Assembly: GCF_017433805.1 (NCBI RefSeq)
Contig: NZ_JAFRGN010000046.1
Coordinates: 1 to 64,000, forward strand
From: Butyrivibrio sp.
GTDB lineage: Bacteria; Bacillota; Clostridia; Lachnospirales; Lachnospiraceae
Length of the DNA: 64,000 nucleotides
Direction of reading: 5' to 3'
The notes under the pieces were generated by a model that ran no database searches, was not told where the DNA came from, and was given only the letters and a program-made list of their open reading frames with translations. Position 1 is the first letter of the stretch. Each line of letters opens with the position of its first letter. Positions 49,927 through 64,000 of the stretch are shown here, in pieces. The position numbers were made by a program, and so were the translations under genes.

Positions 49927-51219
49927 ATGATCGACATTAAATTTTTACGTGAGAATCCAGATGTTGTAAGAGAGAACATCAAAAAGAAATACCAGGATGA
50001 GAAGCTTCCTCTTGTAGATGAAGTTATCAAGTTGGATGAGCAGAGAAGATTAAACCAGCAGGAAGCTGATGAAATTAGAGCTCATAAGAATAAGATTTCA
50101 AAAGAAATCGGTGGCCTTATGGCACAGGGCAAAAAAGATGAGGCTATGGCACTCAAGGATGAAGTAGCTAAGGAAGCTAAGAGACTTGAGGAGCTTGAGG
50201 AGAATCAGAAGACGCTTGATGAAGAAGTTACAAACAAGATGATGATCATTCCTCAGATCATCGACGAGTCAGTACCTATCGGTAAGGATGATTCACAGAA
50301 CGTAGAGATCGAGAAGTTCGGTGAGCCAGTTGTTCCTGATTTCGAGATTCCTTATCACACAGATATTATGGAGAGCTTTGATGGTATCGACCTTGATGCA
50401 GCTAGAAGAGTTGCAGGTAACGGTTTCTACTACCTCATGGGTGATATCGCAAGACTTCATTCTGCAGTTATTTCTTACGCTAGAGATTTCATGATCGACA
50501 GAGGCTTCACATACTGCGTACCTCCTTTCATGATCCACGGCAACGTAGTTGCAGGTGTTATGAGCTTCCCAGAAATGGAAGCTATGATGTACAAGATTGA
50601 GGGAGAGGATCTTTACCTCATCGGTACAAGTGAGCATTCAATGATCGGTAAGTTCATTGATCAGATCGTTCCAGAAGAAGAGATGCCTAAGGCTCTTACA
50701 AGCTATTCACCTTGCTTCAGAAAAGAGAAAGGTGCTCATGGTATTGAGGAGAGAGGTGTTTACAGAATTCACCAGTTCGAGAAGCAGGAGATGGTTGTTA
50801 TCTGTAAGCCTGAAGATTCTAAGACATGGTATGACAAGCTCTGGAAGAACACAGTAGATCTTTTCAGATCAATGGATATTCCTGTACGTACTCTTGAGTG
50901 CTGCTCAGGAGATCTTGCAGATCTTAAGTGTAAGTCATGCGACGTTGAAGCTTGGTCACCAAGACAGAAGAAGTACTTCGAAGTTGGTAGCTGCTCTAAC
51001 CTTGGAGATGCTCAGGCTAGACGTCTTAAGATCAGAATTAAGGGTAAGGATGGCAACTACCTTGCTCACACACTTAACAACACAGTTGTTGCTCCACCAA
51101 GAATGCTTATAGCATTCCTTGAGAACAACCTTCAGGCTGATGGAAGCGTTCGTATTCCAGAAGTTCTCCGTCCTTACATGGGTGGAAAAGAAGTTCTTGT
51201 TCCAAAGAAGAAGGCTTGA
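49927..51219 (+). CDS. serS: Seryl-tRNA synthetase
   Basis: 430 residues from the ATG with GGAGGAG upstream. An N-terminal antiparallel coiled coil (about 25-105) for the tRNA-Ser long arm precedes the class II catalytic core, with motif 2 FRKEKGAHGIEERGVYRIHQ and a motif 3 region near NNTVVAPPRMLIAFLENN. It carries the CCSGDLADLKCKSCDVEAW segment typical of Clostridia. It charges tRNA-Ser with serine. Confidence 0.97.
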   Translation: MIDIKFLRENPDVVRENIKKKYQDEKLPLVDEVIKLDEQRRLNQQEADEIRAHKNKISKEIGGLMAQGKKDEAMALKDEVAKEAKRLEELEENQKTLDEEVTNKMMIIPQIIDESVPIGKDDSQNVEIEKFGEPVVPDFEIPYHTDIMESFDGIDLDAARRVAGNGFYYLMGDIARLHSAVISYARDFMIDRGFTYCVPPFMIHGNVVAGVMSFPEMEAMMYKIEGEDLYLIGTSEHSMIGKFIDQIVPEEEMPKALTSYSPCFRKEKGAHGIEERGVYRIHQFEKQEMVVICKPEDSKTWYDKLWKNTVDLFRSMDIPVRTLECCSGDLADLKCKSCDVEAWSPRQKKYFEVGSCSNLGDAQARRLKIRIKGKDGNYLAHTLNNTVVAPPRMLIAFLENNLQADGSVRIPEVLRPYMGGKEVLVPKKKA

Positions 51220-51239
51220 TTTAGTGAGGTAAAATCCTA

Positions 51240-52133
51240 GTGCATAAATTCTTACGTTGCGTAGGTTTTTCAAAAATTAAAGACAGAAAAGAACTGACGG
51301 CACTTATCACTGCCTGTATTCAGGATGCTACGAGACGAAGCTACGTTTCAACCAAAGATGATGGAATGGTAGCAGAATTTGCCAGAGATTTTGCTGATGA
51401 TATAGGACTAGCTGTTTGCGGGGAATTTGATGAGGAAGATAAATTCATCTACGAATATTATTATCCTTATCTGATTCCATCCCAGGTTAGTACTGAGGAA
51501 GACCTCAATGTTGAGAGACACGCAGCTACAATTTCCTACGAGGGAGTTTGTAACGAACCGAGGGTTGGTGTAACACTCATTTTCTATCTTCTCAATATGA
51601 TTCCATATATGAAGTATGAGAATGAGAACAAGTTCCCAATCAGAGGAACAACACTCAGTCTTTCAGCTCTTTCTACAAAGGGACAGATTCTGATGCCCAT
51701 TGCCAAGACGGAAGAGGAAAAAGAGGTAGCTCGTAAGAAAAACAATTATCGTAATAAACTCATAAATAACGCCAGAAAAGGAGACGACACAGCAATCGAG
51801 TCTCTGACACTGGATGATATGGACTTATATACATCAATTTCCAAAAAAATCAGGAAGCAGGATGTGTATAGTCTTGTAGATTCATACTTTATGCCTTTTG
51901 GCGTAGAGTGTGACCATTATTCAATTCTTGGAGAAATAACTGCGACCAGAAAAGTTACTAATAGATTTACTGGCGAGAATGTCTTTATCATGAGAATCAA
52001 TTGCAATGACCTGGAGTTTGATCTGGGTATAAATGAAATTGATCTTCTTGGTGAACCAGCTGTCGGCAGGAGATTTAAGGGTAATATCTGGATGCAGGGA
52101 TTTATAAACTATCCAGATGCGAAGAGAAAATAA
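51240..52133 (+). CDS. DUF3881 family protein
   Basis: 297 residues from a GTG start with GAGGT about ten bases upstream. No signal peptide or membrane helix. The N-terminal HKFLRCVGFSKI and central CNEPRVGVTLIFYLLN motifs match the DUF3881 family as I know it, largely confined to Lachnospiraceae and relatives. Function unknown. It sits 20 bases after serS and 24 before deoD and is probably cotranscribed with both. Confidence 0.75.
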   Translation: MHKFLRCVGFSKIKDRKELTALITACIQDATRRSYVSTKDDGMVAEFARDFADDIGLAVCGEFDEEDKFIYEYYYPYLIPSQVSTEEDLNVERHAATISYEGVCNEPRVGVTLIFYLLNMIPYMKYENENKFPIRGTTLSLSALSTKGQILMPIAKTEEEKEVARKKNNYRNKLINNARKGDDTAIESLTLDDMDLYTSISKKIRKQDVYSLVDSYFMPFGVECDHYSILGEITATRKVTNRFTGENVFIMRINCNDLEFDLGINEIDLLGEPAVGRRFKGNIWMQGFINYPDAKRK

Positions 52134-52157
52134 GATAGTCAAATAAGGAGGGATATT

Positions 52158-52868
52158 ATGGCAACACCACACAATAGTGCAGAAAAAGGCGATTTCGCAA
52201 AGACCGTCCTGATGCCAGGAGATCCATTAAGAGCAAAATTCATCGCAGAGAATTTCCTTACAGATGTTAAGTGCGTTAACGAAGTAAGAGGAATGCTCGG
52301 ATTCACAGGTAAATATGAGGGAAAAGAAGTGTCTGTTATGGGACACGGAATGGGAATTCCTTCAATCGGTATTTATACATACGAGCTTTTCAATTTCTAT
52401 GATGTAGACAACATCATCAGAGTTGGCTCAGCAGGCGGTATGCAGGACGATGTTAATGTAATGGACATCATCTTTGCTATGGGCGCACACACAGATTCTA
52501 ACTATGGATTCCAGTTTGGACTTCCAGGAACCTTCTGCCCAACAGCAACTTACGATATTCTTGAGAAGGCTGTTAACATCGCTAAGGATAAGGGCGTAAG
52601 ATACCACGTTGGTAACGTTCTTGCTTCTGATGCTTTCTACAAGAAGAACTGCGACGAGGCTGATCGTTATAGAAACCTCGGAACACTTGCAGTTGAGATG
52701 GAGACAGTAGCTCTTTACATGAACGCTGCTGAGGCCAAGAAGAACGCGCTTACAATCCTCACAGTATCTGATCACCTCTACAAGTCAGAGGAACTCTCTG
52801 CAGCAGAGCGTCAGACAAGCTTCACAGACATGATGGAGATTGCGCTCAAGACAGCAATTCAGCTTTAA
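52158..52868 (+). CDS. deoD: Purine nucleoside phosphorylase DeoD
   Basis: 236 residues, hexameric bacterial type. Motifs LMPGDPLRAKFIAE, GHGMGIPSIGIYTYEL, RVGSAGG and AVEMETVALY are intact, with the catalytic Asp in VSDHLY. It splits purine (deoxy)nucleosides with phosphate for salvage. AAGGAGGG precedes the ATG. Confidence 0.96.
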   Translation: MATPHNSAEKGDFAKTVLMPGDPLRAKFIAENFLTDVKCVNEVRGMLGFTGKYEGKEVSVMGHGMGIPSIGIYTYELFNFYDVDNIIRVGSAGGMQDDVNVMDIIFAMGAHTDSNYGFQFGLPGTFCPTATYDILEKAVNIAKDKGVRYHVGNVLASDAFYKKNCDEADRYRNLGTLAVEMETVALYMNAAEAKKNALTILTVSDHLYKSEELSAAERQTSFTDMMEIALKTAIQL

Positions 52869-52892
52869 TCTTAGAGAAAACTAAGAAAGGAT

Positions 52893-52935
52893 CTCATCAG
52901 GAAAAAGAATTTTCTTTTTCCTGGTGAGTTATTTA
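52893..52935 (+). terminator. Terminator after deoD
   Basis: CTCATCAGGAAAAAGA / TCTTTTTCCTGGTGAG stem followed by TTATTTATT; also immediately upstream of the phosphatase gene, so it may partly insulate it. Confidence 0.75.
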
Positions 52936-52939
52936 TTAT

Positions 52940-53650
52940 ATGAGACTCATTTTTGTAAGGCACGGAGAGCCAAACTACGCCGACGATTGTCTCACAGACA
53001 ACGGAATAGTTCAGGCTAAAGCGACAGCTAAGAGACTTGAAAAAGAAAATATAAAGAAAATCTACTCATCCCCAATGGGAAGAGCAGTTAAGACTGCCTC
53101 TTTTACAGCAGAAGATCATGACCTAGATGTTACAACTCTTGATTTCATGCATGAAATCGACTGGGGAGATAAGAGAGAAATCTCAAATGATGATTCTGAC
53201 ATTATCCCATTTGATGGCCATCCATGGACTCTTGGATATAAGCTTCTTACTGAGAATCAGGAATACATCGGTGGTAACAATTGGGAGCAGCATCCATATT
53301 TCAAGAACAATAGATGCATGAACTCTTTTGATAAGATTTCAGTAGGTATAGACGAGATTCTGTCTGGATACGGACTTAAGCGCCACAACGGATATTATCT
53401 ATGCGAAGAAGAGAATCAGGATACCATAGCTCTTTTTGCTCACGGTGGATCAGGTGCAGTAATGTTCTCGCACGTATTAAACATTCCATTTCCAGTTGCA
53501 CTTACCATGCTTCCTTATGGTGTTTGCTCAGTATCTGTGCTTGCTTTTGATGGATGCGAAGGAGATATGGTCATTCCAAGATTTGAGATTTTCAATGATA
53601 TGCGCCATCTTGAGAACATAGCAAAAGAGAAGATGAATTTTGATAAGTAA
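52940..53650 (+). CDS. Histidine phosphatase family protein (phosphoglycerate mutase-like)
   Basis: 236 residues. The catalytic LIFVRHGEPNY motif opens the protein; IKKIYSSPMGRAVKTA holds a second phosphate-binding Arg and FAHGGSGAVM the distal His. The roughly 50-residue insertion between these blocks (WGDKREISN to NRCMNSFDK) probably forms the substrate lid. Likely a broad phosphatase; the substrate is unknown. It starts directly after the deoD terminator without a strong ribosome binding site. Confidence 0.88.
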   Translation: MRLIFVRHGEPNYADDCLTDNGIVQAKATAKRLEKENIKKIYSSPMGRAVKTASFTAEDHDLDVTTLDFMHEIDWGDKREISNDDSDIIPFDGHPWTLGYKLLTENQEYIGGNNWEQHPYFKNNRCMNSFDKISVGIDEILSGYGLKRHNGYYLCEEENQDTIALFAHGGSGAVMFSHVLNIPFPVALTMLPYGVCSVSVLAFDGCEGDMVIPRFEIFNDMRHLENIAKEKMNFDK

Positions 53651-53665
53651 TAATCAGCAAGAACG

Positions 53666-53692
53666 GAGCTTACTTGATTAGAGTAAGCTCTT
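53666..53692 (+). terminator. Terminator after the histidine phosphatase gene
   Basis: GAGCTTACT / AGTAAGCTC stem with a seven-base loop and a weak T-run (CTTGTGCT). Confidence 0.55.
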
Positions 53693-53714
53693 GTGCTAAT
53701 ATACTATTTGTCAT

Positions 53715-53788
53715 GTTTCCGTAGCTCAGCAGGAGAGAGCGTTCGCCTCCTAAGCGAAAGGTCGTGCGTTCGAATCGCATCGGGAACA
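53715..53788 (+). tRNA. tRNA-Arg (anticodon CCU)
   Basis: All four arms fold: acceptor GTTTCCG/CGGGAAC, D-arm GCTC/GAGC, anticodon stem TTCGC/GCGAA with loop CTCCTAA (anticodon CCT), T-arm GTGCG/CGCAT with TTCGAAT. The discriminator is A and the CCA end is not encoded. It decodes AGG. tRNA-Arg(CCU) is a frequent integration site for mobile elements, and an accessory segment follows. Confidence 0.96.
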
Positions 53789-53793
53789 CTGTA

Positions 53794-53826
53794 AGGAAGC
53801 ACATTTGTAGTGCTTCCTATTTTTTA
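53794..53826 (+). terminator. Terminator of the tRNA gene
   Basis: AGGAAGCAC / GTGCTTCCT stem, seven-base loop, then TATTTTTTATTTT. Confidence 0.92.
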
Positions 53827-53829
53827 TTT

Positions 53830-53913
53830 TCACCCAAAAGGTGGGTGACACTGGGTGACAATTTTCTCAATCTGCTTGTTCTTTTTCATAAGCAGCCATT
53901 CGAGACCTAATAC
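53830..53913 (-). pseudogene. Possible integrase C-terminal remnant beside tRNA-Arg
   Basis: On the minus strand an open frame ends in ..LEWLLMKKNKQIEKIVTQ followed by CHPPFG and a stop. The tail style (VTQCHP) and position, pointing at the 3' end of a tRNA gene, recall tyrosine recombinases of integrative elements, but no catalytic motif is present. The rest of the 326-base gap (53789-54114) has only the palindrome and promoter listed separately. This could be chance coding. Confidence 0.25.
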
Positions 53914-53985
53914 GATAATATTATAACGGCATAAAGTTATAATAAAGAAATCTTGAATGTTCTGGATTATGTCACTGTGAATAGA

Positions 53986-54008
53986 GATATCTACGAATCG
54001 TAGATATC
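53986..54008. promoter_or_regulatory. 23-base palindrome, probable operator of the HTH-membrane gene
   Basis: GATATCTACGA - A - TCGTAGATATC, a perfect inverted repeat of 11-base arms about 107 bases before the HTH gene. A possible extended -10 (TGCTAAAAT) follows within 20 bases, so a bound regulator could block the promoter. Auto-regulation is inferred. Confidence 0.55.
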
Positions 54009-54114
54009 AGTACTATGCTAAAATATACTTATTTCTACGCTTATGAGGTTACAATATACTTAAATATTTCTTACGCTTTAACTGTAACTATTAGTGAGCT
54101 GATAGGAGCAGAAA

Positions 54115-54873
54115 ATGATCAATCAAAAGAAGACAGGACAGTTCATAGCAGATATCAGAAAAGAAAAAGGTCTTACTCAGAGACAACTAGCAGAAGAGAT
54201 TGGAGTAAGTGATAAGGCAATCTCCAGATGGGAAACAGGTCGTGGTATGCCTGATACATCTATAATGCCAGATCTATGCAAAGTTCTTGATATCAGTATT
54301 AATGATCTTTTGTCAGGACAGCGCCTATCCAGCGATGATTATTGCGGAAAGGCGGAAGAAAATATGGTAGAGCTTATAAAAACAAATGAAGATGTTAAAA
54401 GACAAAGCAGAAAAGCCGTTGTTGGAACTGTTGTAGGTATTATTTTGCTGTGTCTTTTTATTTATCTGATTACTCTTGTATCCGGCGGAGTAGGGATGGT
54501 AATTTACTTCATCGATCCTCCATCCTTAATCTCACTGCTTGGAATTCAGCTTATTATCCTTGGCGCTTCAGGGCATTTTGCAGAGTTTTTCAGAAGCTTC
54601 AAACTGCTTTTTTTCTCTAAAAGATATTCCGATGAAGAGCTTATGCTGTTATCAGAAAAATCAGAGTATGCCATAACGTTCGGTATTAGAACTACTCTTT
54701 TAGCAGCCTTATGTGTAGCTCTGATAGGTTTTGTACTTCTCATGCACAACATAGCTGATCCCGCGACCATCGGTCCAAACCTTGCAGTGATGGTGCTTAC
54801 TGCCCTTTATGCTTGTATAATCTCACTCATTTTATTAGTGATTAAGGGAAGACTCCATCGGTTTCATGCGTAG
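54115..54873 (+). CDS. XRE-type HTH regulator fused to a MotA/ExbB-like membrane domain
   Basis: 252 residues. Residues 5-65 are an XRE helix-turn-helix (GLTQRQLAEEIGVSDKAISR WETG region). Residues about 100-250 hold four hydrophobic segments. The first pair reads FIDPPSLISLLGIQLIILG.. then FRSFKLLFFSKRYSDEEL. The second pair ends ADPATIGPNLAVMVLTALYA. These match the pattern of MotA/TolQ/ExbB proton-channel subunits (DPPSLL...FKxxF and DPxxIGPxxAVALLTTLYG) without the large cytoplasmic loop. A membrane-tethered regulator is likely; ion conduction is speculation. AGGAGCAGAAA precedes the ATG. Confidence 0.7.
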   Translation: MINQKKTGQFIADIRKEKGLTQRQLAEEIGVSDKAISRWETGRGMPDTSIMPDLCKVLDISINDLLSGQRLSSDDYCGKAEENMVELIKTNEDVKRQSRKAVVGTVVGIILLCLFIYLITLVSGGVGMVIYFIDPPSLISLLGIQLIILGASGHFAEFFRSFKLLFFSKRYSDEELMLLSEKSEYAITFGIRTTLLAALCVALIGFVLLMHNIADPATIGPNLAVMVLTALYACIISLILLVIKGRLHRFHA

Positions 54874-54913
54874 ACAAAGAAAGGAACTGTTCAGAAATCT
54901 GGACAGTTCTTAT

Positions 54914-55141
54914 TTATGTGAACATATGCATGTTTTCTTCAATAAACTCATATATTATCTTACGAGTTATCTCTTTGCTTATCACATCCCCAGTTTCATG
55001 GGCGTGTTTCTGAAGATTATATATTTCAGTAAATCCTTCTTTTCTAATCAGCATGATAGGGTCGGAATAAAACAAAGTCCCTTCTTTTTCTAAGACACAC
55101 AGCTCATAACCTAAAAGCTTTTTAATAACGATGCAAGCCAT
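54914..55141 (-). CDS. Small hypothetical protein downstream of an HTH regulator
   Basis: 75 residues with no recognised domain: a hydrophobic start (MACIVIKKLLGYELCVL), a central LFYSDPIMLIRKEGF and a charged helical end (KEITRKIIYEFIEEN). It lies six bases after the HTH gene at 55148-55783 and uses GGGAG within that gene's end as ribosome binding site, so the two are coupled. Possible partner or effector of the regulator; not identifiable further. Confidence 0.6.
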   Translation of the reverse strand: MACIVIKKLLGYELCVLEKEGTLFYSDPIMLIRKEGFTEIYNLQKHAHETGDVISKEITRKIIYEFIEENMHMFT

Positions 55142-55147
55142 TACAAG

Positions 55148-55783
55148 TTACTCCCACGCTGGTATCATTTCAACTTTTTTGTTATTCCACATAGCAATAA
55201 GCTGTGACTTATGCTCTTTATACCAGGCTTCTATAACAGGAAGAACGTACTTTGAAAAGCTTCCTGTTATAGTGCCTTCACTTAAGCGTAAACTTCCTTG
55301 AATGTTATCATCGAGGTAATTTATATCTACTGATGGGGCACCTTCAAATTCAGAATCCATAAATACCTCAACATCGCAAAACTCAGCAATCTTCACCATG
55401 GATTTCTTCTCAGTTCTGTCGACATAGTCAGAGAGAAGAGACTTTTCTTTGGCCTTTCGAGCATATTCCAGTAAGTGTTCGCGTTCTAGCCAATCCAAAT
55501 CATTAAATAGTTCTATTAGTTCTCGCTCTTCAGTTCCCTGAGGAATAACCATATAATCCACGTCCCTTCCTCTGTTACTATCTTCCGTGACCCCTGACAA
55601 AAGATATTCAGGAGTAACGCCAAGCGCAGCACATATTACCATTACCTTGTCAGATCCTGGATTTGTATTCTTTTTTCTCCAGTCGCTTATAGTAGTTGTT
55701 GCAATGCCAGTCTTATTTGAAAACTCTTTCTGAGTCATATGCTTTTCTTCAAGCAGATGGAAAATTCTTTGTCCAATTGTCAT
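55148..55783 (-). CDS. XRE-type transcriptional regulator
   Basis: 211 residues. The N-terminal HTH (MTQKEFSNKTGIATTTISDW, to about residue 65) is followed by a helical segment (LIELFNDLDWLEREHLLEYARKA) and a C-terminal alpha/beta part with no recognised family. It may act like phage or integrative-element repressors. It forms a two-gene unit with the 75-residue gene downstream and diverges from the region holding gene debris. Confidence 0.8.
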   Translation of the reverse strand: MTIGQRIFHLLEEKHMTQKEFSNKTGIATTTISDWRKKNTNPGSDKVMVICAALGVTPEYLLSGVTEDSNRGRDVDYMVIPQGTEERELIELFNDLDWLEREHLLEYARKAKEKSLLSDYVDRTEKKSMVKIAEFCDVEVFMDSEFEGAPSVDINYLDDNIQGSLRLSEGTITGSFSKYVLPVIEAWYKEHKSQLIAMWNNKKVEMIPAWE

Positions 55784-55861
55784 CGAAACACCTCTATGAA
55801 ATCGTTAATTACGGATTTATAATAACATTGCCTATTAAAATCGTCAATTACGGATTAGTTG

Positions 55862-56029
55862 GAACCTGAAAATGGACCACCAACCCCGTCCCCCAGGTCC
55901 AATTACAGTTGGGATGGGAAAAAATTTCATGTAAGTCTTAAGGTTCTTGATGGCAAGGACAGCACTACTGTACTGTCTTAGGCAGAATTCTATGTTGTTC
56001 CTGTCAATAATACAACAATTGAGCCGTAG
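55862..56029 (+). pseudogene. Fragment of a degraded secreted-protein-like gene
   Basis: One frame reads WDGKKFHVSLKVLDGKD then STTVLS, a TAG stop at 55979-55981, then AEFYVVPVNNTTIEP and a second stop. The beta-rich, Asn/Thr-rich style suits an extracellular module, but there is no start and no recognisable family. The 441-base gap 55784-56224 otherwise holds the GGGGACGG-type motif at about 55884-55893 (complement strand), the hairpin at 56049 and the MCP promoter region. Confidence 0.35.
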
Positions 56030-56048
56030 TAAAGATCAGGGCGATACT

Positions 56049-56129
56049 GCTAAAACCAATCTTGCATACGGTCAGGCGATAGTTTTCCCATGACTGACTT
56101 CATAACCGGATGCAAGATTGATTTTAGCG
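56049..56129. repeat. Long imperfect hairpin upstream of the MCP gene
   Basis: Arms 56049-56071 and 56106-56128 (GCTAAAACCAATCTTGCAT with ATGCAAGATTGATTTTAGC) pair almost fully, with GTCAG/CTGAC inside the loop. It may be a terminator of the decayed gene before it, or a small mobile repeat. A plain TATAAT box follows at about 56160. Confidence 0.5.
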
Positions 56130-56224
56130 TTATTTAATAATTGTTCACAACGTAATAGTATATAATTATTTTGTCAGTTATTGTACAGTTAAATTCTGTT
56201 TTCATGGCTAAAGGAGATAATTAT

Positions 56225-57673
56225 ATGACACCTGACCAGTATGCAAGATCAAACAAAAAAGTATTTCAGATCAACCTTATTATTGCCTTTACTGCGCTTT
56301 TAATGGTAGTGCTGGATGCTGCAACACACGGAATGAGTCTGGGGCTTGTTATCGAGATTGTCGCTGTCCTGGCAGGTGTGCTGCAGATGACGGTTGGGTT
56401 TATCAAATTCAGAGAGACCAGGTTTGGCGCAGTGGTCATTCTGGGAGGTCCGACTCTTTACTATATCATTATCATGATAATACAAAATGATATGATTTTT
56501 TATGCATTCGCGATACCGGTAATGCTGTCGTGTATTCTTTATCTGGACTTAAGGCTCTATGTGGTGGGACAGATGACTATGACCATAGGCGGACTTATTG
56601 TCCTGGTCAGAAATCTTATTGCTACAGGTTCGATACCCAGGGACCATTTTGTGGCCGGTTTCATAATCATTCTTGCGGGAATTGCCGGAATAGAGTCGCT
56701 TAAGATGAGGCGGGCCCTGGTAAGAGAGGACGACGAGGCCATCAAGAAAGGGCAGGAGACCCAGGAAAAGACCCGTATCCAGATGGTGGAGATTGCCAAG
56801 GAAATTACGGGGCTGTTTGATGAGGCCCATGGGGAAGTCGATGAGTTAAAGAGCATCATAGGAAGAAACCACGATGGCATGAGGGAAATTGCGGGCAGCA
56901 CAGGAAATACCGCAGCTGCCGTGACAGAGCAGTCACATCAGATAGCAGATATCCATGAGCAAACGGAAGTGGCTGATGCCAAGAGAAATCAGATGGTTGA
57001 GATGTCCGAGAGCACGCAGAAAGCCGTTATTGATGGGACTAAGGTCATCGACCAGCTCAAGGACAAGACCGCAAATGTTGTTGAGATGAGTGATAAGACG
57101 GTGGCATCCACAAAAGCTGTCACTGAGAAGGTCGAAAAGGTTGAGAAGATTGTCGGTTCCATCATATCGATATCAAAGCAGACCAATCTTCTTGCGCTCA
57201 ATGCTTCAATTGAGGCAGCGCGTGCGGGAGCAGCCGGGAAAGGTTTCGTTGTGGTTGCCGATGAGATAAGGCAGCTGTCGGAGCAGACCAGCAGTGCTTC
57301 AAATCAGATCACCAGCATCATGCAGGAGCTTTCCGCTGATGTTCAGAATGCGGTAGACTCTACCAATGCGGCAGCTGAGTCTGTCAAGGCTCAGGACATT
57401 CTTATCAGAGAGACCGCAGATACTTTTGAAGAGATCGGGGAGAACGTTGGAAACCTTATAGGAAGATTTAATGATATTGGTACTTCCATAGAAGCTATAG
57501 GAAGAAGTGCAACGGAGATCAATAATAATATTGCGAGCCTCGCCGCCACAAGTGAGCAGGTGGCATCTTTGTCCAGTATGAACGAAGAGGGAGCAAGGAC
57601 AGCGGTGGAGAAATTTGATGAGTTTGATATTCTGCTGAAGGGGATATATGATCAGGCGCAGAGGCTGAAATAA
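56225..57673 (+). CDS. Methyl-accepting chemotaxis protein with membrane sensor
   Basis: About 482 residues from the ATG preceded by AAGGAG; an in-frame extension of 18 residues is unsupported. Residues 15-165 hold about six hydrophobic helices with very short loops, so there is no large extracellular sensor domain. The remainder is a cytoplasmic coiled-coil signalling domain whose hairpin tip is [24 protein letters not shown], interrupted here only for description ([19 protein letters not shown]). It should control CheA; no che or flagellar genes are in the window. Its codon use is noticeably more GC-rich than its neighbours and it is flanked by GGGGACGG repeats, which suggests transfer. Confidence 0.88.
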
Positions 57674-57692
57674 TGTAATACCGGTCAGGGCA

Positions 57693-57720
57693 GTCACGGG
57701 GACGGGAAGTCACGGGGACG
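57693..57720. repeat. Tandem GTCACGGGGACGG repeat
   Basis: AGTCACGGGGACGG occurs twice, 57692-57704 and 57707-57720, at the left edge of the MITE-like element. The same GGGGACGG core occurs as its complement near 55884-55893 and 57971-57980. Confidence 0.6.
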
Positions 57721-57980
57721 GTTCCAATGTCATTTAGATAAGAAAATGCAGTAAATGCGAAATAGGCACGCTACGTTCTTCAGATTACACAGTAGCGTGG
57801 ATATCTACGTGACACAGCTTTATCTTTAGACTGTTATCACGTATTTTCGCAATGATTTTCTGGCATTCTACGTGATACACCCCCGTTAATAAAGAGCAGC
57901 ATCTCACGTAAACGCTATAAATATCATGCTTGTTGCTCTGTCACATCTTTTTCTTATCTAAATGACATTGACCCCGTCCC
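57714..57980. mobile_element. MITE-like element with 33-base terminal inverted repeats
   Basis: Left end 57714-57746 and right end 57948-57980 are inverted repeats; 22 consecutive bases (from CAATGTCATTTAGATAAG onward) match perfectly and the outer GGGACGG is shared. The 200-base interior has no ORF but has hairpins CACGCTAC/GTAGCGTG and AGAGCA/TGCTCT and several TCACGTA/TACGTGA copies in both directions. No transposase and no clear target duplication are seen. It could move in trans, or be a REP-type structured repeat. Confidence 0.65.
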
Positions 57981-58026
57981 TCTGGCCCATTGAACAACAA
58001 GATTGAACAACAATTTGATAAAATGA

Positions 58027-58055
58027 TTGACAACTTAGAATATGACGATTATACT
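58027..58055 (+). promoter_or_regulatory. Promoter of the GNAT leader RNA
   Basis: TTGACA, 17-base spacer, TATACT: near-consensus. It lies 35 bases before the 36-codon leader ORF. Confidence 0.8.
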
Positions 58056-58089
58056 TTCACTTAATATTTGAAAGGAAGCAGCAATTATC

Positions 58090-58200
58090 ATGATGAACAG
58101 AAATCTCGTCGATTTAAATAATGTCGATAATAATCTCATGAATAATTTTCATGGGTTTGTTTTGATATGTTACGATGAGACGAAGCGCATTATGAATTGA
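58090..58200 (+). CDS. Small ORF (36 residues), possible leader peptide of the GNAT gene
   Basis: MMNRNLVDLNNVDNNLMNNF then HGFVLICYDETKRIMN and a stop. GAAAGGAAG lies ten bases upstream. It sits between a strong promoter and a strong terminator that precedes the GNAT gene by 28 bases. Its codons for YDE contain GATGAG (58174-58179), complementary to CTCATC in the terminator 5' arm. No family is recognised. It may be a leader peptide or just a small protein. Confidence 0.5.
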   Translation: MMNRNLVDLNNVDNNLMNNFHGFVLICYDETKRIMN

Positions 58201-58230
58201 ATTTGGGATAATTCATTTATAGCTAGATAT

Positions 58231-58269
58231 TAGCCTCATCAGACAATATGTTTGATGGGGCTATTTTTT
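58231..58269 (+). terminator. Terminator or attenuator upstream of the GNAT gene
   Basis: Thirteen continuous pairs (TAGCCTCATCAGA / TTTGATGGGGCTA, with G-U pairs), a seven-base loop and TTTTTT. A 7-base-pair hairpin ATGAATT/AATTCAT lies just before it at 58192-58216. Confidence 0.88.
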
Positions 58270-58296
58270 ATCAAAAAGGGGAAGGAGTTTTGTAGT

Positions 58297-58824
58297 ATGG
58301 AAGAGTTAGTGTTAGTAAGACCAGATGGAGCGTACGCTGAGCAGATCAAGGAATATAGGCAGGAATTCCTGGATGCGGGAAGTTCCATGGATGGAACAGG
58401 AATGCTCCGTAGAATTGAAGATCCTTATGAGTGGATCAGGGTTTGCGAAGAGTTCAATTCTGAAGAAACAGTTCCTGAAGGAAAGGTTCCAAGCACGCTT
58501 TTCATGTGCATACGTAAGGACGATAACAGAATAGTTGGAATGCTTGATATGCGCCACAGACTCAATGACTATCTGAGGAACTTCGGCGGAAATATTGGCT
58601 ATTCCATAAGACCATCAGAGCGTAGAAAAGGCTATGCCAAGAAGATGCTGAGTCTTGTACTACCATACTGCAGGGAACTTGGTCTTGATAAAGTTATGAT
58701 AAGCTGCAATGTCGACAATGAGGGTTCAAGGAGAACTATTCTGGCTAACGGCGGCGTTTATGAGGGAACTTCTCATGAGCCAGATGAAGATATGGACCTT
58801 GAGAGATACTGGATCACATTATGA
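58297..58824 (+). CDS. GNAT family N-acetyltransferase
   Basis: 175 residues from the ATG preceded by GGAAGGAG; an upstream in-frame start would lie in the terminator. The GNAT core shows IGYSIRPSERRKGYAKKML, where RRKGYA is the acetyl-CoA pyrophosphate loop, and ISCNVDNEGSRRTILANGG. The substrate is unknown: amino acid, drug or protein N-terminus are all possible. It lies 42 bases before a nucleoside phosphorylase gene. Confidence 0.88.
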   Translation: MEELVLVRPDGAYAEQIKEYRQEFLDAGSSMDGTGMLRRIEDPYEWIRVCEEFNSEETVPEGKVPSTLFMCIRKDDNRIVGMLDMRHRLNDYLRNFGGNIGYSIRPSERRKGYAKKMLSLVLPYCRELGLDKVMISCNVDNEGSRRTILANGGVYEGTSHEPDEDMDLERYWITL

Positions 58825-58866
58825 TGGATACCTAATGGTAAAGAAGAATTAATGAAAGGATAACGT

Positions 58867-59631
58867 ATGATAATTACAAACGAATTTCCAGTTTTGGAAT
58901 ATGATGATTGTTCTGCGGAAGTTATTCCACCAGACCATGACTGCAAGGATTTAAAGCTTCCTGAGAAATGTCTTTTTACATTTCTAGGAGACGTGGTTCA
59001 TGAGTACGCTGAGAGGAATAATGCGGAAGTTGTTGAGGAAATGATAAACGTTTCTCACACAACCAAGATATATGTGGTCCATGGGAAAAAAGAGGATTTC
59101 TGCCTTGTGCAGTCACAGATCGGTGCGCCGGCAGCAGTGCAGCTAATGGACGTAGTTGTCAGCTGCGGATGCAAAAAGGTTATTGCAGTTGGCTCCTGTG
59201 GCGTACTGGATGAAATCCCTGAGAATGCTTTCCTTGTGCCAACCAGAGCACTTAGGGATGAAGGAACGTCCTATCATTATGTTCCGGCATCAAGATATAT
59301 CGATCTTGATAGCGAGGCAATAAATGCAATAGAAAAGAGCTTTACTGAGCAGGGACTGCCATTTGTAGCATGTACTACCTGGACTACAGATGCATTCTTT
59401 AGAGAGACCAAGGACATGGTAAAGCACAGGCTTGAAGAAGGTTGCTCTGTTGTAGAGATGGAATGCGCAGCCCTTGCTGCCTGTTGTCAAAAGAGAGGTG
59501 CCAAGTTTGGACAGTTCCTCTTTACAGCAGATTCACTTGCAAATGTCCATGAGTATGACGAGAGAGATTTCGGTACAAGTTCCCATGAGAAAGCTCTTTT
59601 ACTGGGGCTTGAGGTTCTGAAGAGATTCTAA
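58867..59631 (+). CDS. Nucleoside phosphorylase (PNP/UDP family)
   Basis: 254 residues. The family core is clear: VQSQIGAPAAVQLMDVVVSC, IAVGSCGVL, and VVEMECAALAACCQKRGA with the ribose-binding Glu. It resembles uridine phosphorylase-like stand-alone enzymes rather than DeoD, so it probably salvages a pyrimidine or purine nucleoside; the base is not predictable. AAGGATAACGT precedes the ATG. Confidence 0.87.
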   Translation: MIITNEFPVLEYDDCSAEVIPPDHDCKDLKLPEKCLFTFLGDVVHEYAERNNAEVVEEMINVSHTTKIYVVHGKKEDFCLVQSQIGAPAAVQLMDVVVSCGCKKVIAVGSCGVLDEIPENAFLVPTRALRDEGTSYHYVPASRYIDLDSEAINAIEKSFTEQGLPFVACTTWTTDAFFRETKDMVKHRLEEGCSVVEMECAALAACCQKRGAKFGQFLFTADSLANVHEYDERDFGTSSHEKALLLGLEVLKRF

Positions 59632-59632
59632 G

Positions 59633-59661
59633 TTGACAGGAAACTGTATAGGTAATATAGT
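59633..59661 (+). promoter_or_regulatory. Promoter of the MutS2-like gene leader
   Basis: TTGACA, 17-base spacer, TATAGT, directly after the phosphorylase stop codon. Transcription should begin near 59668. Confidence 0.85.
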
Positions 59662-59709
59662 CGAATTAACATAAGATGTGTTAACCATAATATAAAAAAG
59701 AGGAAATTT

Positions 59710-59730
59710 ATGTTAAGTGTTGTAAGATAA
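59710..59730 (+). CDS. Six-codon leader ORF (MLSVVR)
   Basis: ATG TTA AGT GTT GTA AGA TAA with AGAGG six bases upstream. The stop codon abuts the 12-pair hairpin at 59731, so a ribosome halted here would keep that hairpin open. Very short leaders with hydrophobic Val-Val ends occur in erm attenuators (for example IAVV in ErmAL). Translation is inferred, not shown. Confidence 0.5.
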   Translation: MLSVVR

Positions 59731-59893
59731 TTCATTGCAATACGGATATACGATATTGCAATGAGCATAAGGATTCAATGAATCAATACTTATGGGTTAG
59801 TGGTGAAATCTACTGGCTTATTAGATTACGCTTAATAATATTATGGTAAGAACCGCATTTTATGAGGTTATTGTTTGATGTGTCTGATTTTAG

Positions 59894-59930
59894 AACCATG
59901 ATATCTTGGCGTAAGGTATCATGGTTTTTT
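59894..59930 (+). terminator. Attenuator terminator before the MutS2-like gene
   Basis: AACCATGATATC / GGTATCATGGTT stem of 12 pairs, nine-base loop, TTTTTT. It ends 17 bases before the start codon, so most transcripts should stop unless antitermination occurs. Confidence 0.92.
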
Positions 59931-59947
59931 CGTTTTGGAGAATACAG

Positions 59948-61858
59948 ATGAACACAGAGACACAAATTGAATTTGATAAGATAAAAGAAATATGGGCGGG
60001 GCTCACAAGTACAGATTATGCCAAGGAAAAGATACGTGAGACAGAAATTATACTAAGTGAAAGTGCACTTCGAAAGGCACTTCAGGATACGACAGATAGC
60101 CGGGCATTTATAGAAAAGCTTGGAAATCCTCCACTTCAGAACGTAACAGAAGTGCGAGAGGTCCTGACTATAGCAGAAAAGGGCAAGTGCCTGACTCCAT
60201 ACCAACTTGAGAGAGTTGAAAAAGCTCTGGTAGCTGTTGAGAGGATGATGGACTATCTGTCACGCGGCAAGCAGTACAATAACAGCCTTGCCTACTATGA
60301 TGAAAACTTAAATCCTCTAACTGAGCTCAGGGAAGAGATAGTAAGTCAGATCAGAAACGAAGAAGTGGATGACAGGGCGTCAAAAGAGCTGTATGATCTC
60401 CGAAACCATATAGCTGCCATGGAAGAAAACATGAAGCAGAAGGCTGATCAGATCATAAGAAAAAATAAGGATTTCATGGCTGATTCATATCATACTGTGA
60501 GAAATGGTAGAGTATGCGTTCCTGTAAAGAAAGAATACAAATTCAGGATTCCTGGAAGTGTGATCGATAAATCCTCAACTGGAAACACACTTTTTGTGGA
60601 ACCTGAGGGGCTTGCAAAGTGTTATGATGAGCTGGAGCTAATGCGTATCGATGAGGAAAATGAAGTATACAGAATCCTTTATACCCTCACAGTCATGGTG
60701 GCTGACGATGCCCAGATCATGGAAGAAAACATAAAGATGCTTGAAAAGCTGGACTATATTTTTTCCAAGGGAAAGCTCAGTATCGAGCTGGATTGCGCGG
60801 AGCCTTTCATAAATCTGGAAAGGCGTATTAAGCTTGTGAAGGCAAGACACCCTCTGATGGATAAAGAGATTAATGTCCCGCTGGATTTTACTCTTGGAGA
60901 GGGAGACGTGCGAGGAATAGTCATCACGGGCCCCAACACAGGCGGAAAGACAGTTGCCATCAAGACTGTAATGCTTAGTTGCTACATGGCACAGTGCGGA
61001 CTACATGTAGCCTGCAAGGAAGCCGATATCTGCATGAATAGTAATTTTCTTTCTGATATAGGAGATGGCCAGAACTTGTCTGAGAATCTGTCCACATTTT
61101 CAGCTCATATTAAAAATGTCCTTGATATACTGAGCCAAATTAATCATGAGAGCCTTGTTATCATGGACGAGCTTGGCTCAGGTACAGACCCTGCGGAGGG
61201 CATGGGAATTGCGGTTGCCATACTTGAAGAACTTAAGAAAAGTAATGCCAATTTCCTTGTAACAACCCATTATCCAGAGATCAAGGATTATGCAGCCAGG
61301 ACAGAGCACATTGAGAACGCGAGAATGGCCTTTGATAAAGAGACTCTTCGTCCGACCTATGAGATGGTCATTGGAGAAGCTGGAAACAGTTGTGCTTTTT
61401 ACATTGCAGAAAGGCTCGGCATGCCAGCTGAAATGCTGGAAGTTGCAGCAAAGGCCGCTTACGGAGAAGATGCTGCTAAGGACTATGTTTTTGCTATCGG
61501 GAATAAACGCAGTAAAAAGACATCTGGAAGCAGGATTGTTAAGACTAAGCAAATTCATTCTACAGCAGAACTGGAGCAGAAATTCAGCATTGGTGATAGC
61601 GTAATGATTTATCCTGACAAGAAGATAGGAATTGTTTGTGAGCCAATAAATAAAAAGGGGATTCTTAGAGTACAGCTTCCGAACAAAAAGATTTACATCA
61701 ACCATAAGCGCGTCAAACTCCATGTGAAAGCAGACCAGCTCTATCCAGAAAACTATGATTTCTCCATAGTTTTTGATACTGTGGCAAATCGCAAGGCAAG
61801 GCATGAAATGAGCCGAAAGCTTACGGATAAAGTAATTGTGTATGACGAGGATGACTAA
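59948..61858 (+). CDS. MutS2-like ATPase lacking the Smr nuclease domain
   Basis: 636 residues from the ATG with GGAG seven bases upstream. It lacks the mismatch-binding domains I and II of MutS. A helical lever/clamp region (about 1-290) leads to the MutS ATPase: Walker A TGPNTGGKT, IGDGQNLSENLSTFSAH (signature), Walker B VIMDELGSGTDPAEG and TTHYPEIKDYA. After a short basic linker comes a KOW-like segment (FSIGDSVMIYPDKKIGIV), then about 50 residues (VFDTVANRKARHEMSRK) where MutS2 normally carries Smr; the LDLRG nuclease motif is missing. B. subtilis MutS2 binds collided ribosomes and splits them. This relative may keep ribosome action without RNA cleavage; that is inferred. Confidence 0.85.
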   Translation: MNTETQIEFDKIKEIWAGLTSTDYAKEKIRETEIILSESALRKALQDTTDSRAFIEKLGNPPLQNVTEVREVLTIAEKGKCLTPYQLERVEKALVAVERMMDYLSRGKQYNNSLAYYDENLNPLTELREEIVSQIRNEEVDDRASKELYDLRNHIAAMEENMKQKADQIIRKNKDFMADSYHTVRNGRVCVPVKKEYKFRIPGSVIDKSSTGNTLFVEPEGLAKCYDELELMRIDEENEVYRILYTLTVMVADDAQIMEENIKMLEKLDYIFSKGKLSIELDCAEPFINLERRIKLVKARHPLMDKEINVPLDFTLGEGDVRGIVITGPNTGGKTVAIKTVMLSCYMAQCGLHVACKEADICMNSNFLSDIGDGQNLSENLSTFSAHIKNVLDILSQINHESLVIMDELGSGTDPAEGMGIAVAILEELKKSNANFLVTTHYPEIKDYAARTEHIENARMAFDKETLRPTYEMVIGEAGNSCAFYIAERLGMPAEMLEVAAKAAYGEDAAKDYVFAIGNKRSKKTSGSRIVKTKQIHSTAELEQKFSIGDSVMIYPDKKIGIVCEPINKKGILRVQLPNKKIYINHKRVKLHVKADQLYPENYDFSIVFDTVANRKARHEMSRKLTDKVIVYDEDD

Positions 61859-61885
61859 CGCAAAAGCAGTAACATAAAAAACAGC

Positions 61886-61914
61886 TTGGGAAAAAGTAAA
61901 ATTAGGGTTACTAT
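61886..61914 (+). promoter_or_regulatory. Possible promoter and operator before the RelA/SpoT-like gene
   Basis: TTGGGA, 17-base spacer, TACTAT. The -10 lies inside the palindrome GTTACT-ATATA-AGTAAC (61907-61923), which could be an operator. A terminator follows at 61930, so this promoter would itself be attenuated. Confidence 0.4.
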
Positions 61915-61929
61915 ATAAGTAACAAAGAA

Positions 61930-61969
61930 AGCAAAGGTGCTTGAACAGGGCATCTTTGCTTATTTTTTT
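61930..61969 (+). terminator. Terminator between the MutS2-like and RelA/SpoT-like genes
   Basis: AGCAAAGGTGC / GCATCTTTGCT stem of 11 pairs, nine-base loop, TTTTTTT; it abuts the GGAGGAGG of the next gene. Confidence 0.92.
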
Positions 61970-61983
61970 GGAGGAGGTATGGA

Positions 61984-62973
61984 ATGGTTACATTAAATGA
62001 TTATCTATACAACGGGGACACTGTGCTCAAGATATTGCAGATGTATTCCAGGGATCTAAAAGAATCCTCGATTAAGACTGGCAATACAGTAGATATGTTC
62101 CATAGCAATTTCCTTTTGCGAATGGAGGAGTTACTGGTTCATAATGACTTCCTCACATCCCAGTCTCAGAGAATTCGCGAACTTTACAAGTACATGACAA
62201 GACAATATCCTCAGCTGGCCTTTACCTTCAAGGGACGAATTAAATCGCTTATCAGAGCTGAAGAGAAATTTAACGCCTATATCGTAGAGACTGTCTACAA
62301 TTACTACAAGGAACATGGCTCTTTTCCTGAGGCAAATGAAGTGAAGAGTAAAATAGAGCATTTCAGGGATCTCATCGCCTATAGAATTGTAATATCCATG
62401 CCAAGGTGCCACGTAAGTGACCCAAAAGAGCGTCAGGAGATTGAGCTTAAGTACCTCTATGAAATAGCAAATATGCTGCCGGACTTCTTGGAGCAAAGAG
62501 GCTTTAGTCCAGAAATGTCCTCCATAAACAGTTCATCAACCTCAGAAAGGTTAAGCGAATCAGTAAGACCATATTTTAAGGACTACATCAGTAACCCAAG
62601 TCCTTATGGCTATGAGTCTCTTCACATAACTCTTTATGACAACGAATCCAGAAGCTATGTCGAGGTTCAGCTCCGCACAAAAGACATGGATGACTACGCA
62701 GAGATAGGCCCAGCCAATCATCTTGGCTATGAAAAGAGACAGCAAAAAGAGCGCGCAAAGAGAAACAAGATTCCTCAGGGAGAATGCATCTTTTTTGATG
62801 AAGCCTTTGAAAGAGGAATGCTACTTCAGCAGCTGGAGCTGTCTAAGATAGATGTAAACATGTTCGGAGCAATCAATAACAGCCTCATAAATGATGGCTG
62901 CGGACTATATAGAGGAAGGCTCATTCTGCCATTTGAGCACCTGTCCAGATTCCAGAACGATGTAATAGACTAG
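61984..62973 (+). CDS. RelA/SpoT-type (p)ppGpp synthetase domain protein
   Basis: 329 residues. The synthetase motifs are recognisable in order: KGRIKSLIRAEEK (ATP-site Arg/Lys), FRDLIAYRIVI (metal Asp), NPSPYGYESLHITLYD (GTP-site Tyr and the conserved His) and YVEVQLRTKDMDDYAEIGP (catalytic Glu of the ExQxRT motif) followed by NHLGYEK. There is no HD hydrolase domain and no TGS or ACT domain. It is longer than usual small alarmone synthetases, with a roughly 75-residue insertion before PYGYESLH and a 60-residue C-terminal extension. It probably makes (p)ppGpp or a related alarmone. GGAGGAGG precedes the ATG. Confidence 0.82.
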   Translation: MVTLNDYLYNGDTVLKILQMYSRDLKESSIKTGNTVDMFHSNFLLRMEELLVHNDFLTSQSQRIRELYKYMTRQYPQLAFTFKGRIKSLIRAEEKFNAYIVETVYNYYKEHGSFPEANEVKSKIEHFRDLIAYRIVISMPRCHVSDPKERQEIELKYLYEIANMLPDFLEQRGFSPEMSSINSSSTSERLSESVRPYFKDYISNPSPYGYESLHITLYDNESRSYVEVQLRTKDMDDYAEIGPANHLGYEKRQQKERAKRNKIPQGECIFFDEAFERGMLLQQLELSKIDVNMFGAINNSLINDGCGLYRGRLILPFEHLSRFQNDVID

Positions 62974-63104
62974 AAAAGAGGTATTAGGGTAAACTTTATT
63001 ATAATTATTCTATCTATTTGAATACCTATAGGGCGCTGATATTATTGAAAATGTAAAAGCGCTTTGAACAGACAACATGAACAGACACAAGAGAGGGTAT
63101 GAAA

Positions 63105-63387
63105 ATGAATAGAGATATTTTTATCAGAAATTTGACAAAAGAAAAGATAGAGATGAGCCCAAAGGGCAGAAAAGCAAGTGAGGTAACACCTGAGGAATTC
63201 GAGCAGTGCTACGAGAACTTTTTTGACATGATCTTCGAAATATCTCCTTGTTCCCGAGAAGCTCTATGAGTATGCTAAAAAGAGAAACATCGAGATTCCT
63301 GTGCATGGCATACTACAAGGAAATTGTGAGAATATTACGCCCCTACTAAGAGTGCACAGAATGTCGGGTGCACCTTTTAGCAGATAG
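63105..63387 (+). pseudogene. Frameshifted small hypothetical gene
   Basis: It starts ATG with GAGAGG upstream and a possible promoter TTGAAT-16-TATTAT at 63018-63045. The first frame gives MNRDIFIRNLTKEKIEMSPK..EEFEQCYENFFDMIFE and then stops at 63267-63269. From about 63238 the +1 frame continues naturally: YLLVPEKLYEYAKKRNIEIP..HGILQGNCENITPLL, to TAG at 63385-63387. One base shift near 63237-63243 therefore splits a protein of about 95 residues. No family is recognised. Sequencing error or true mutation cannot be told apart. Confidence 0.6.
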
Positions 63388-63425
63388 ATATACTGATAGT
63401 ACAGTGAAGGAAAGGAGTGAACGTG

Positions 63426-64000
63426 ATGCAAGGTTGGATCGAAGGCTTCCAGGAATCCATCGACTTCATAGAAGAGAATTTGACGGATGAGCTGGATATT
63501 GAGGTCATAGCCAGTAAGGCGGCTTTATCGCCGTTCTACTATCAGCGCATTTTTGGAGCACTTTGTGGTGTGACTGTCGGAGAATACATCAGGGCGCGCA
63601 GAATGACTCTGGCAGCACAGGAACTTAGTAGGCAGGACGTTAAGGTAATCGATGTGGCCGTTAAATATGGCTACGATTCACCGGATAGTTTTACCAAGGC
63701 TTTCCAGAAGTTCCATGGAATTACGCCTATTCAGGCCAAGGAGCCTGGGGCGCCGCTTCGCTCTTTTGCACCGCTGCATATTAAAATCACGATGGAGGGT
63801 GGTACTATGTTGGATTATCGTATTGTTAAGAAGGCACCGTTTACAATTGTTGGAGTTAAGAGACCTTTTAACTCAGATACAAGCTATCAGGAGATTCCTA
63901 AGTTCTGGGATGAACTGCTTGCTCAGGGTGAGAAGCGCCCTATTATGGGAACCTTTGGCGTATGCCTTGATATGAAAGGAAAAGAGTTTGACTATTGGAT
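63426..64000 (+). CDS. AraC family regulator with GyrI-like effector domain (cut by window end)
   Basis: 191 residues are present; the gene runs off the right edge. Residues about 5-105 are the double HTH of AraC/XylS type (VIASKAALSPFYYQRIFG, VKVIDVAVKYGYDSPDSFTK, FQKFHGITPIQA). Residues from about 125 (LDYRIVKKAPFTIVGVKRPF) begin a GyrI/SOUL-like small-molecule-binding domain, as in SAV/Rob-type regulators. AAAGGAGTGAACGTG precedes the ATG; a GTG one codon earlier is an alternative start. It may sense a drug or amphiphile; unknown target. Confidence 0.88.
   Translation, partial: MQGWIEGFQESIDFIEENLTDELDIEVIASKAALSPFYYQRIFGALCGVTVGEYIRARRMTLAAQELSRQDVKVIDVAVKYGYDSPDSFTKAFQKFHGITPIQAKEPGAPLRSFAPLHIKITMEGGTMLDYRIVKKAPFTIVGVKRPFNSDTSYQEIPKFWDELLAQGEKRPIMGTFGVCLDMKGKEFDYW

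Follow-up and report, generated by a model that had tools for sequence, protein, structure and literature searches.

A conserved leader with a short upstream ORF, a candidate ribosome-operated transcription attenuator, precedes a MutS2-like ATPase gene in Butyrivibrio

The closest known system to the locus analyzed here is rli80-hflXr of Listeria monocytogenes, in which a dedicated paralogue of a ribosome splitter is controlled by attenuation and induced by lincomycin and erythromycin (PMC6310831; this and the other papers cited by PMC number are drawn on in excerpt). The likeness lies in the duplication of a ribosome-splitting factor (a putative one in our locus), with the dedicated paralogue placed under ribosome-dependent transcription attenuation, and in the build of the leader, where a small ORF overlaps the anti-antiterminator and is joined by an antiterminator and an intrinsic terminator (excerpt of PMC6310831). 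The proteins differ, being HflX-like in Listeria and a MutS2-like ATPase in our locus, and the 14-aa Listeria peptide carries the motif RLR, which is missing from ours (excerpt of PMC6310831). The likeness is one of kind, and no kinship of the RNA sequences is claimed.

Other leaders share parts of this design. The msrDL leader of msrD (MYLIFM) resembles ours in its six codons, UAA stop and attenuation via an intrinsic terminator, and its product acts on drug-stalled ribosomes, as the protein in our locus may; it differs in the peptide, the ABC-F product and the established macrolide specificity (excerpt of PMC10314930). The tlrB (yxjB) leader of Bacillus subtilis likewise joins a short uORF, stalling (which our leader would share) and a terminator, with NusG pausing as a timing device, whereas its RYR motif, rRNA methyltransferase product and added SD-sequestering hairpin set it apart (excerpt of PMC6851288). 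In toiL-topAI-yjhQP of Escherichia coli, the uORF pairs lengthwise with the control element, as in our leader, and a stall anywhere along it may operate the switch, but control is translational and involves Rho, not intrinsic termination, and the genes are unrelated (excerpt of PMC12121999). Searches of the open-access literature brought up no description of our leader, of its peptides, or of a leader-controlled Smr-less MutS2, in agreement with the preliminary description of the locus, which knew of no attenuator for this gene family.

The locus lies on the forward strand of a 64,000-nt stretch of Butyrivibrio sp. DNA, the whole of which is referred to here as the window; the best named relative is a Butyrivibrio MAG, the protein identity being 100% after rounding. 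The locus begins with a putative sigma-70-type promoter (59633..59661), recognized by pattern match at 11 of 12 consensus positions and consisting of a -35 box TTGACA (59633-59638), a 17-nt spacer and a -10 box TATAGT (59656-59661). A PNP_UDP_1 phosphorylase/nucleosidase gene (58867-59631) stops just 5' of the -35 box. The promoter is followed by a 5' UTR strand denoted P0 (59670..59693), complementary to 59838-59864; a ribosome-binding site, GAGGA, at 59700; and the uORF MLSVVR (59710..59730), read from the sequence as ATG TTA AGT GTT GTA AGA TAA. Further downstream are a hairpin after the uORF stop (59732..59764), seen in the sequence and the MFE fold, with 59732-59742 paired with 59754-59764; hairpin P4 (59796..59817), identified by covariation in 22 short-type leaders; the anti-uORF strand ACGCTTAA (59828..59835), the partner of the uORF in the pairing denoted P1; the antiterminator strand (59838..59847); and an intrinsic terminator stem with a U-run behind it (59892..59928). 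The MutS2-like ATPase gene itself (59948..61858; 636 aa, TIGR01069, no Smr domain) is followed by a terminator-like site, also a pattern match (61929..61961).

The antiterminator option joins ATATTATGGT (59838-59847) to ACCATGATAT (59895-59904) through 10 pairs, including one G-U, with a duplex energy of -11.1 kcal/mol; among 200 mononucleotide shuffles, 0.5% attain this value. In the free leader, P1, formed by uORF bases 59713-59720 with 59828-59835, has a pairing probability of 0.99 and hides the region beside the antiterminator. The whole leader folds at -83.7 kcal/mol, whereas its dinucleotide-shuffled versions fold at -52.4 +/- 4.2 (z -7.4). Taken singly, the promoter-like and terminator-like patterns do not exceed chance: within 58800-62100, there are 8 of the former against 8.3 expected from shuffles and 2 of the latter against 2.0. 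The promoter, the MLSVVR uORF with its ribosome-binding site, the further hairpins, the terminator and the ten-pair antiterminator option had all been pointed out in the preliminary description and were all found in the sequence or the folds; the hairpin after the stop is present too, but its distance from the stop is one base greater than had been given. That description mentioned neither P1 nor the long pairing of the 5' UTR strand 59670-59693 with 59838-59864, which covers the antiterminator.

We consider it probable, with good confidence, that this leader is a transcription attenuator placed before the MutS2-like gene and opened by a ribosome stalled on the uORF. By default, a ribosome would read through the uORF and leave it vacant; the vacated uORF RNA, in the subclade of the window together with the 5' UTR, would then pair with 59825-59864 and hide the antiterminator, so that the terminator at 59892-59928 would form and transcription would end before the gene. 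A ribosome stalled on the uORF (M-L-S-V-V-x) would block this pairing, and the freed antiterminator would capture the 5' arm of the terminator, allowing RNA polymerase to continue into the MutS2-like gene. In the window subclade, the 5' UTR lock would have to open too, for example, by means of a ribosome detained on the start codon or close to it. Sequence reading and comparison of relatives show the individual parts and how they are conserved, the terminator, and pairings that on sequence exclude one another. Stalling would be the trigger of the switch, and its usual signal is probably a ribosome-targeting antibiotic. By analogy with MutS2, the product would split or clear stalled ribosomes.

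Conservation was assessed in the best 80 of 110 confirmed orthologue loci, which were found among 84,980 species genomes. A strict uORF motif (ATG with a ribosome-binding site, M-L-[SNIT]-[VI]-[VI], 5-20 codons) occurs upstream in 44 of the 80 loci, compared to 0.18 expected from dinucleotide shuffles, and there were no occurrences in antisense or in the coding control. When looser motif and covariance matches are added to the strict ones, a leader is found upstream of 70 of these 80 best loci. Among the 10 loci without a recognized leader, four have less than 1,000 nt upstream and two have transporter genes extending almost up to the gene; no leader is recognizable at L059, L074, L082 and L086 despite 1,500 nt upstream and for no visible reason. 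Judged from these comparisons, the leader is a real, conserved element. The uORF and the stems are kept upstream of orthologues, the point on which the preliminary description had made its reading depend in part, and its proposal of a leader-peptide attenuator before a MutS2-like gene is supported in orthologues by the conserved peptide, RNA structure and terminator/antiterminator pair.

The uORF peptides (100 distinct ones, after removal of 11 duplicates from 111) fall into two main types, one of six codons (MLSVVR/N/K) near the window and one of about twelve (MLSVIVMEKIAK) in other Lachnospiraceae. In 21 of the 22 short-type rows, codons 3-5 encode Ser-Val-Val by means of two, two and three synonymous codons, respectively, a constancy that is partly due to selection of the rows beforehand by the looser motif; codon 6 varies over six amino acids in the same 21 rows. 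In ErmAL1 and ErmCL, arrest takes place at stretches rich in Val and Ile, and an R/K-x-R/K arrest motif is known from macrolide-sensing leaders (ErmDL, MefAL, rli80, tlrB). The latter pattern occurs in 8 of the 100 distinct peptides, such as MLNVIVRKKIAK and MYSIVGRAR; the uORFs concerned include L083:1001-1030 and those of L088, L090 and L039 (MYSIVGRAR, MYSIVGRNR, MLSVIVRVRNAK). For the window peptide, a macrolide +x+ motif was rejected, as MLSVVR has one basic residue.

A terminator was detected behind 94 of 99 leaders and, with the same finder, in 6 of 99 shuffled regions. The fit of each antiterminator to its own terminator arm was evaluated in 79 of these 94 leaders, leaving out those that have only the first terminator type. 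The mean energy was -8.87 kcal/mol, compared to -7.09 after permutation, and none of 10,000 permutations, which leave the relatedness of the leaders in place, was as low; the own arm outperforms dissimilar arms in 62 of the 79 leaders. By this sequence comparison, where a terminator arm differs from one lineage to another, the antiterminator has changed along with it. Taken leader by leader, the antiterminator duplex reaches significance in only 33 of the 94 leaders, counting the best of about 1.5 terminators for each. Many long-type leaders (L089, L042, L036, L043 and others) have two tandem terminators. In the first of these, the sequence around GCATGGCTGTATGGTCATGC hardly varies, a hint that it serves for more than termination.

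Occupancy of the uORF was modelled by masking in 93 of the 94 leaders. With the uORF masked, the expected number of antiterminator pairs rises from 1.86 to 4.37, increasing by more than 2 in 44 of the 93 leaders and decreasing in 7, whereas a control mask placed 41 nt downstream yields 2.09 expected pairs, with an increase in 5 leaders and a decrease in 1. These models support a family design in which uORF RNA would pair beside the antiterminator and a ribosome on the uORF would free it. The simple switch envisaged in the preliminary description thus gains support from the family, but the modelling speaks against it for the window, where masking of the uORF alone gives 0.0 antiterminator pairs and joint masking of the uORF and the 5' UTR gives 6.1. 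The window antiterminator stays locked under the uORF mask because the 5' UTR strand 59670-59693 pairs with 59838-59864. This P0 duplex, in raw energies uncalibrated by shuffles, amounts to -21.9 kcal/mol in the window, to -23.9 to -25.3 kcal/mol in L006, L010, L013, L016, L029, L186 and L188, and to -5.8 to -15.5 kcal/mol in L009, L018, L019, L022, L025, L028, L040, L047 and L089; among the 17 leaders checked, the strong lock is limited to a Butyrivibrio subclade. In equilibrium folding of the full-length window leader, the terminator wins in every modelled state, and therefore the switch would have to be kinetic. For the window switch, these models call in addition for a kinetic effect, for a ribosome detained near the start, or for a pause of RNA polymerase.

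The same lock bears on another reading, under which the leader would sense whether translation starts, or ribosomes are available, on the 5' UTR, a ribosome at the start breaking both locks with no specific nascent-peptide stall. We regard this as unlikely, though deserving of attention: the Butyrivibrio subclade has the 5' UTR lock, the window model needs both strands masked, and toiL sets a precedent for a stall anywhere along a paired uORF being sufficient (excerpt of PMC12121999). Nevertheless, conservation at the amino acid level through synonymous change would be needless for a pure start sensor, and the nine leaders checked outside the subclade have a weaker lock or none.

The leader can be followed beyond the MutS2-like orthologues with two covariance models: R1, built from 27 leaders of other lineages (alignment A1, mostly long-type), and R2, built from the short type. 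R1 locates the leader of the window at 59698-59846 (E 0.015, search space 390,653 bases). A covariance search for the leader in relatives, suggested in the preliminary description, was run with these models, which recover it in Lachnospiraceae. Because in each genome the scans scored only the 7 to 38 best candidates, all counts are lower bounds. In the family scan, R1 matched 44 of 397 genomes (6 of which carry A1 rows by construction) at 46 places. Of these places, 38 lead into a MutS2-like gene, which comes first in 35; in the other 3 it is preceded by an ABC trio, by a GNAT or by a methyltransferase, each once. Four places precede an ABC exporter trio without a MutS2-like gene, one of them stopping at a contig end, and two precede a GNAT without a MutS2-like gene; the remaining ones are a contig end and a likely false match (L136). 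The order scan yielded R1 matches in 11 of 295 genomes at 12 places, comprising 5 MutS2-like genes, 3 ABC trios, 2 repeats and 2 likely false matches. R2 matched 11 of 79 genomes in the genus scan (7 carry rows of the R2 alignment, A4, by construction), and 10 of 397 genomes in the family scan. The genus matches include every one of the nine genomes that have the MutS2-like gene; in the other two, the leader precedes a GNAT, one of these at a contig end. When 30 leader-bearing genomes were searched more deeply, with 101 candidates scored per genome, 25 genomes had one match and 5 had two, with two of the five second matches being weak (E 0.01 and 0.03).

The linked families are ABC_tran with two ABC2_membrane_6 proteins, Acetyltransf_1 (GNAT) and Methyltransf_11 (SAM methyltransferase). 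Family searches assigned no specific function to the linked GNAT, methyltransferase and exporter genes, and the leader-linked GNAT had no PADLOC hit. One leader-linked methyltransferase (L022:702-1511) gave a partial PADLOC match to mad2 (1e-17, residues 31-153), which probably reflects the shared methyltransferase fold. On the evidence of these scans, the leader recurs in many related gut bacteria, mostly before a MutS2-like gene and otherwise mainly before genes of transporter or small-molecule-modifying type.

Given their richness in Leu, Val and Ile, the uORF peptides might instead sense charged tRNAs for these amino acids, as in amino-acid biosynthetic attenuators, rather than a drug; if starvation halted a ribosome at a Val codon, the antiterminator would be exposed in the same manner. 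Such sensing appears improbable in view of the first genes of the inspected operons, none of which is an amino-acid biosynthesis gene, and of the peptides themselves, most of which hold only two or three Val codons. Moreover, codon 5 is neither Val nor Ile in 15 of the 83 aligned uORF rows, where Ala, Phe, Thr, Ser and Gly occur, although residue counts are biased in these rows, which were chosen by motif. A branched-chain amino-acid attenuator was also considered and set aside, as no biosynthetic operon was seen downstream in the inspected loci.

Covariation exceeded both shuffles and slid controls in all three alignments, in tests whose shuffles keep the relatedness of the sequences. In A1, 15 of 30 pairs show two-sided change (0 of 500 shuffles). 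In A3, for which 83 sources were chosen and 72 were matched by R1 (the window and 71 others), the count is 27 of 30 (0 of 500 shuffles), in an alignment that is fitted to the model and leans towards R1. In A4 (22 short-type leaders, rows found by motif), it is 6 of 18 (2 of 500 shuffles). The signal is strongest in the internal hairpin P4 (59796-59817), with 5 of 8 pairs changed on both sides in the 22 short-type leaders. P1 of the short type is kept mostly by sequence conservation: 96.8% of its helix cells are paired in these 22 leaders, and 1 of 10 pairs shows two-sided change. Beyond the core, uORF x anti-strand pairing showed no covariation in 22 short-type leaders (0.823 paired, compared to 0.834 in shuffles).

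A stable, covarying structure would also be expected of a ligand-binding riboswitch in which the short ORF is incidental. We consider this very improbable, in that the uORF and its ribosome-binding site are highly constrained and Ser-Val-Val is kept by synonymous codons; furthermore, a search of 50000-64000 of the window against 4227 Rfam families at gathering scores returned nothing but a tRNA, and a search of nine loci at E up to 5 returned six weak or low-complexity hits, none plausible and none on a leader. Chance assembly, in which the upstream gene's ordinary terminator would merely lie next to a short ORF of random origin, is compatible with the finding that shuffling the region yields each single pattern just as often, but has a negligible probability and is judged to have been refuted already by the conservation and covariation of the leader.

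The gene behind the putative stall-operated attenuator encodes a protein that scores 533 bits against TIGR01069 (MutS2 equivalog; curated cut-off 400), with a match covering profile positions 3-515 of 790, that is, the first two thirds only. Pfam detected MutS_V only, and no C-terminal Smr domain was found in this Pfam search. Elsewhere, the same genome encodes a second MutS2 (L002) of 797 aa that bears Smr according to Pfam. The Walker A (GPNTGGKT) and Walker B (DELGSGTDP) motifs are invariant across 33 orthologues. The AlphaFold model is good until about residue 516, with dips, and has a pLDDT of about 30 over residues 518-614; in Foldseek, it matches 7qv3_w, MutS2 on the B. subtilis collided disome (E 2e-42, TM 0.71). 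A putative KOW/SH3-like stretch after the ATPase aligns in register with canonical MutS2, weakly (hhalign single-comparison E 0.003, probability 10%).

By this modelling, the protein shares the core, lever, clamp and ATPase fold with B. subtilis MutS2 (PDB 7qv3, 8qpp); it differs in lacking Smr, in its leader control and in being about a third identical. B. subtilis MutS2 splits collided ribosomes, with the ATPase mattering most, and cells lacking mutS2 are hypersensitive to chloramphenicol, tetracycline and erythromycin (excerpt of PMC10897456). Loss of Smr need not abolish function because KOW or SMR mutants of this protein show only very modest erythromycin sensitivity (excerpt of PMC10897456). 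Plant MutS2A also lacks Smr but is a plastid-derived plant gene, and no leader is described for it in the excerpt of PMC12292046.

In an unrooted tree of 48 of 54 sequences (the six without the exact Walker string were left out), six canonical MutS2 rows group apart (100/100), with the Smr-less L215 and L219 nearest to them, and the Lachnospiraceae Smr-less proteins form a separate supported group (100/100) that includes L224. L218 lacks Smr, and L209 and L224 cluster among the Smr-less proteins. The gene has a patchy distribution, being present in 9 of 79 genus genomes (E up to 1e-120). A plasmid search returned 10 records, each below 60% identity.

Smr-less proteins outside the Lachnospiraceae are also preceded by short uORFs. 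At 8 of 24 outside loci, of which three came from the plasmid search, a short ORF has an exact reverse complement of at least 9 nt located 36-256 nt downstream, compared to 6 of 480 mononucleotide-shuffled upstream regions, although one of the eight positives (L219) looks spurious. Among canonical MutS2 controls (L002, assigned by Pfam, and L220-L223, L226 and L227, assigned by ORF length), one of seven loci (L220) has such a complement-bearing short ORF. The outside uORFs MLGVVLN, MSVSVLN, MLVTVLN and MSVNVLN have (TT)AGTTAAGAAC downstream, followed by terminator-like hairpins. For these uORFs, a likeness of design, as read from the sequences, is claimed, and not homology.

The V-x-V/VV core seen in MLSVVR, MLSVIVMEKIAK, MSVSVLN, MLVTVLN and MLGVVLN raises a wider reading, for and against which we see the chances as evenly balanced: a Bacillota-wide, so far undescribed class of stress-inducible Smr-less MutS2 paralogues would clear drug-stalled ribosomes under the control of stall-sensing V-x-V/VV uORFs, and in Lachnospiraceae and neighbouring groups the leader would also drive ABC exporters, GNATs and methyltransferases, with one new family of arrest peptides commanding a resistance-type gene set. 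Should the proposed mechanism be right, MutS2-type ribosome splitting would stand beside HflXr as a response that stalled ribosomes induce, and the new leader-peptide family would offer a genomic clue to gut and rumen bacteria carrying such responses. The uORF would serve as a ready-made sensor, and its inducer would hint at what the GNAT, methyltransferase and exporter genes linked to the leader are likely to do.

In the window, the MutS2-like gene is adjoined by one for a RelA/SpoT-domain protein (61984-62973; PF04607, 3e-15), and for the two proteins PADLOC gave weak partial hits only. A protein that resembles this RelA/SpoT neighbour by eye is encoded behind the MutS2-like gene of L188.
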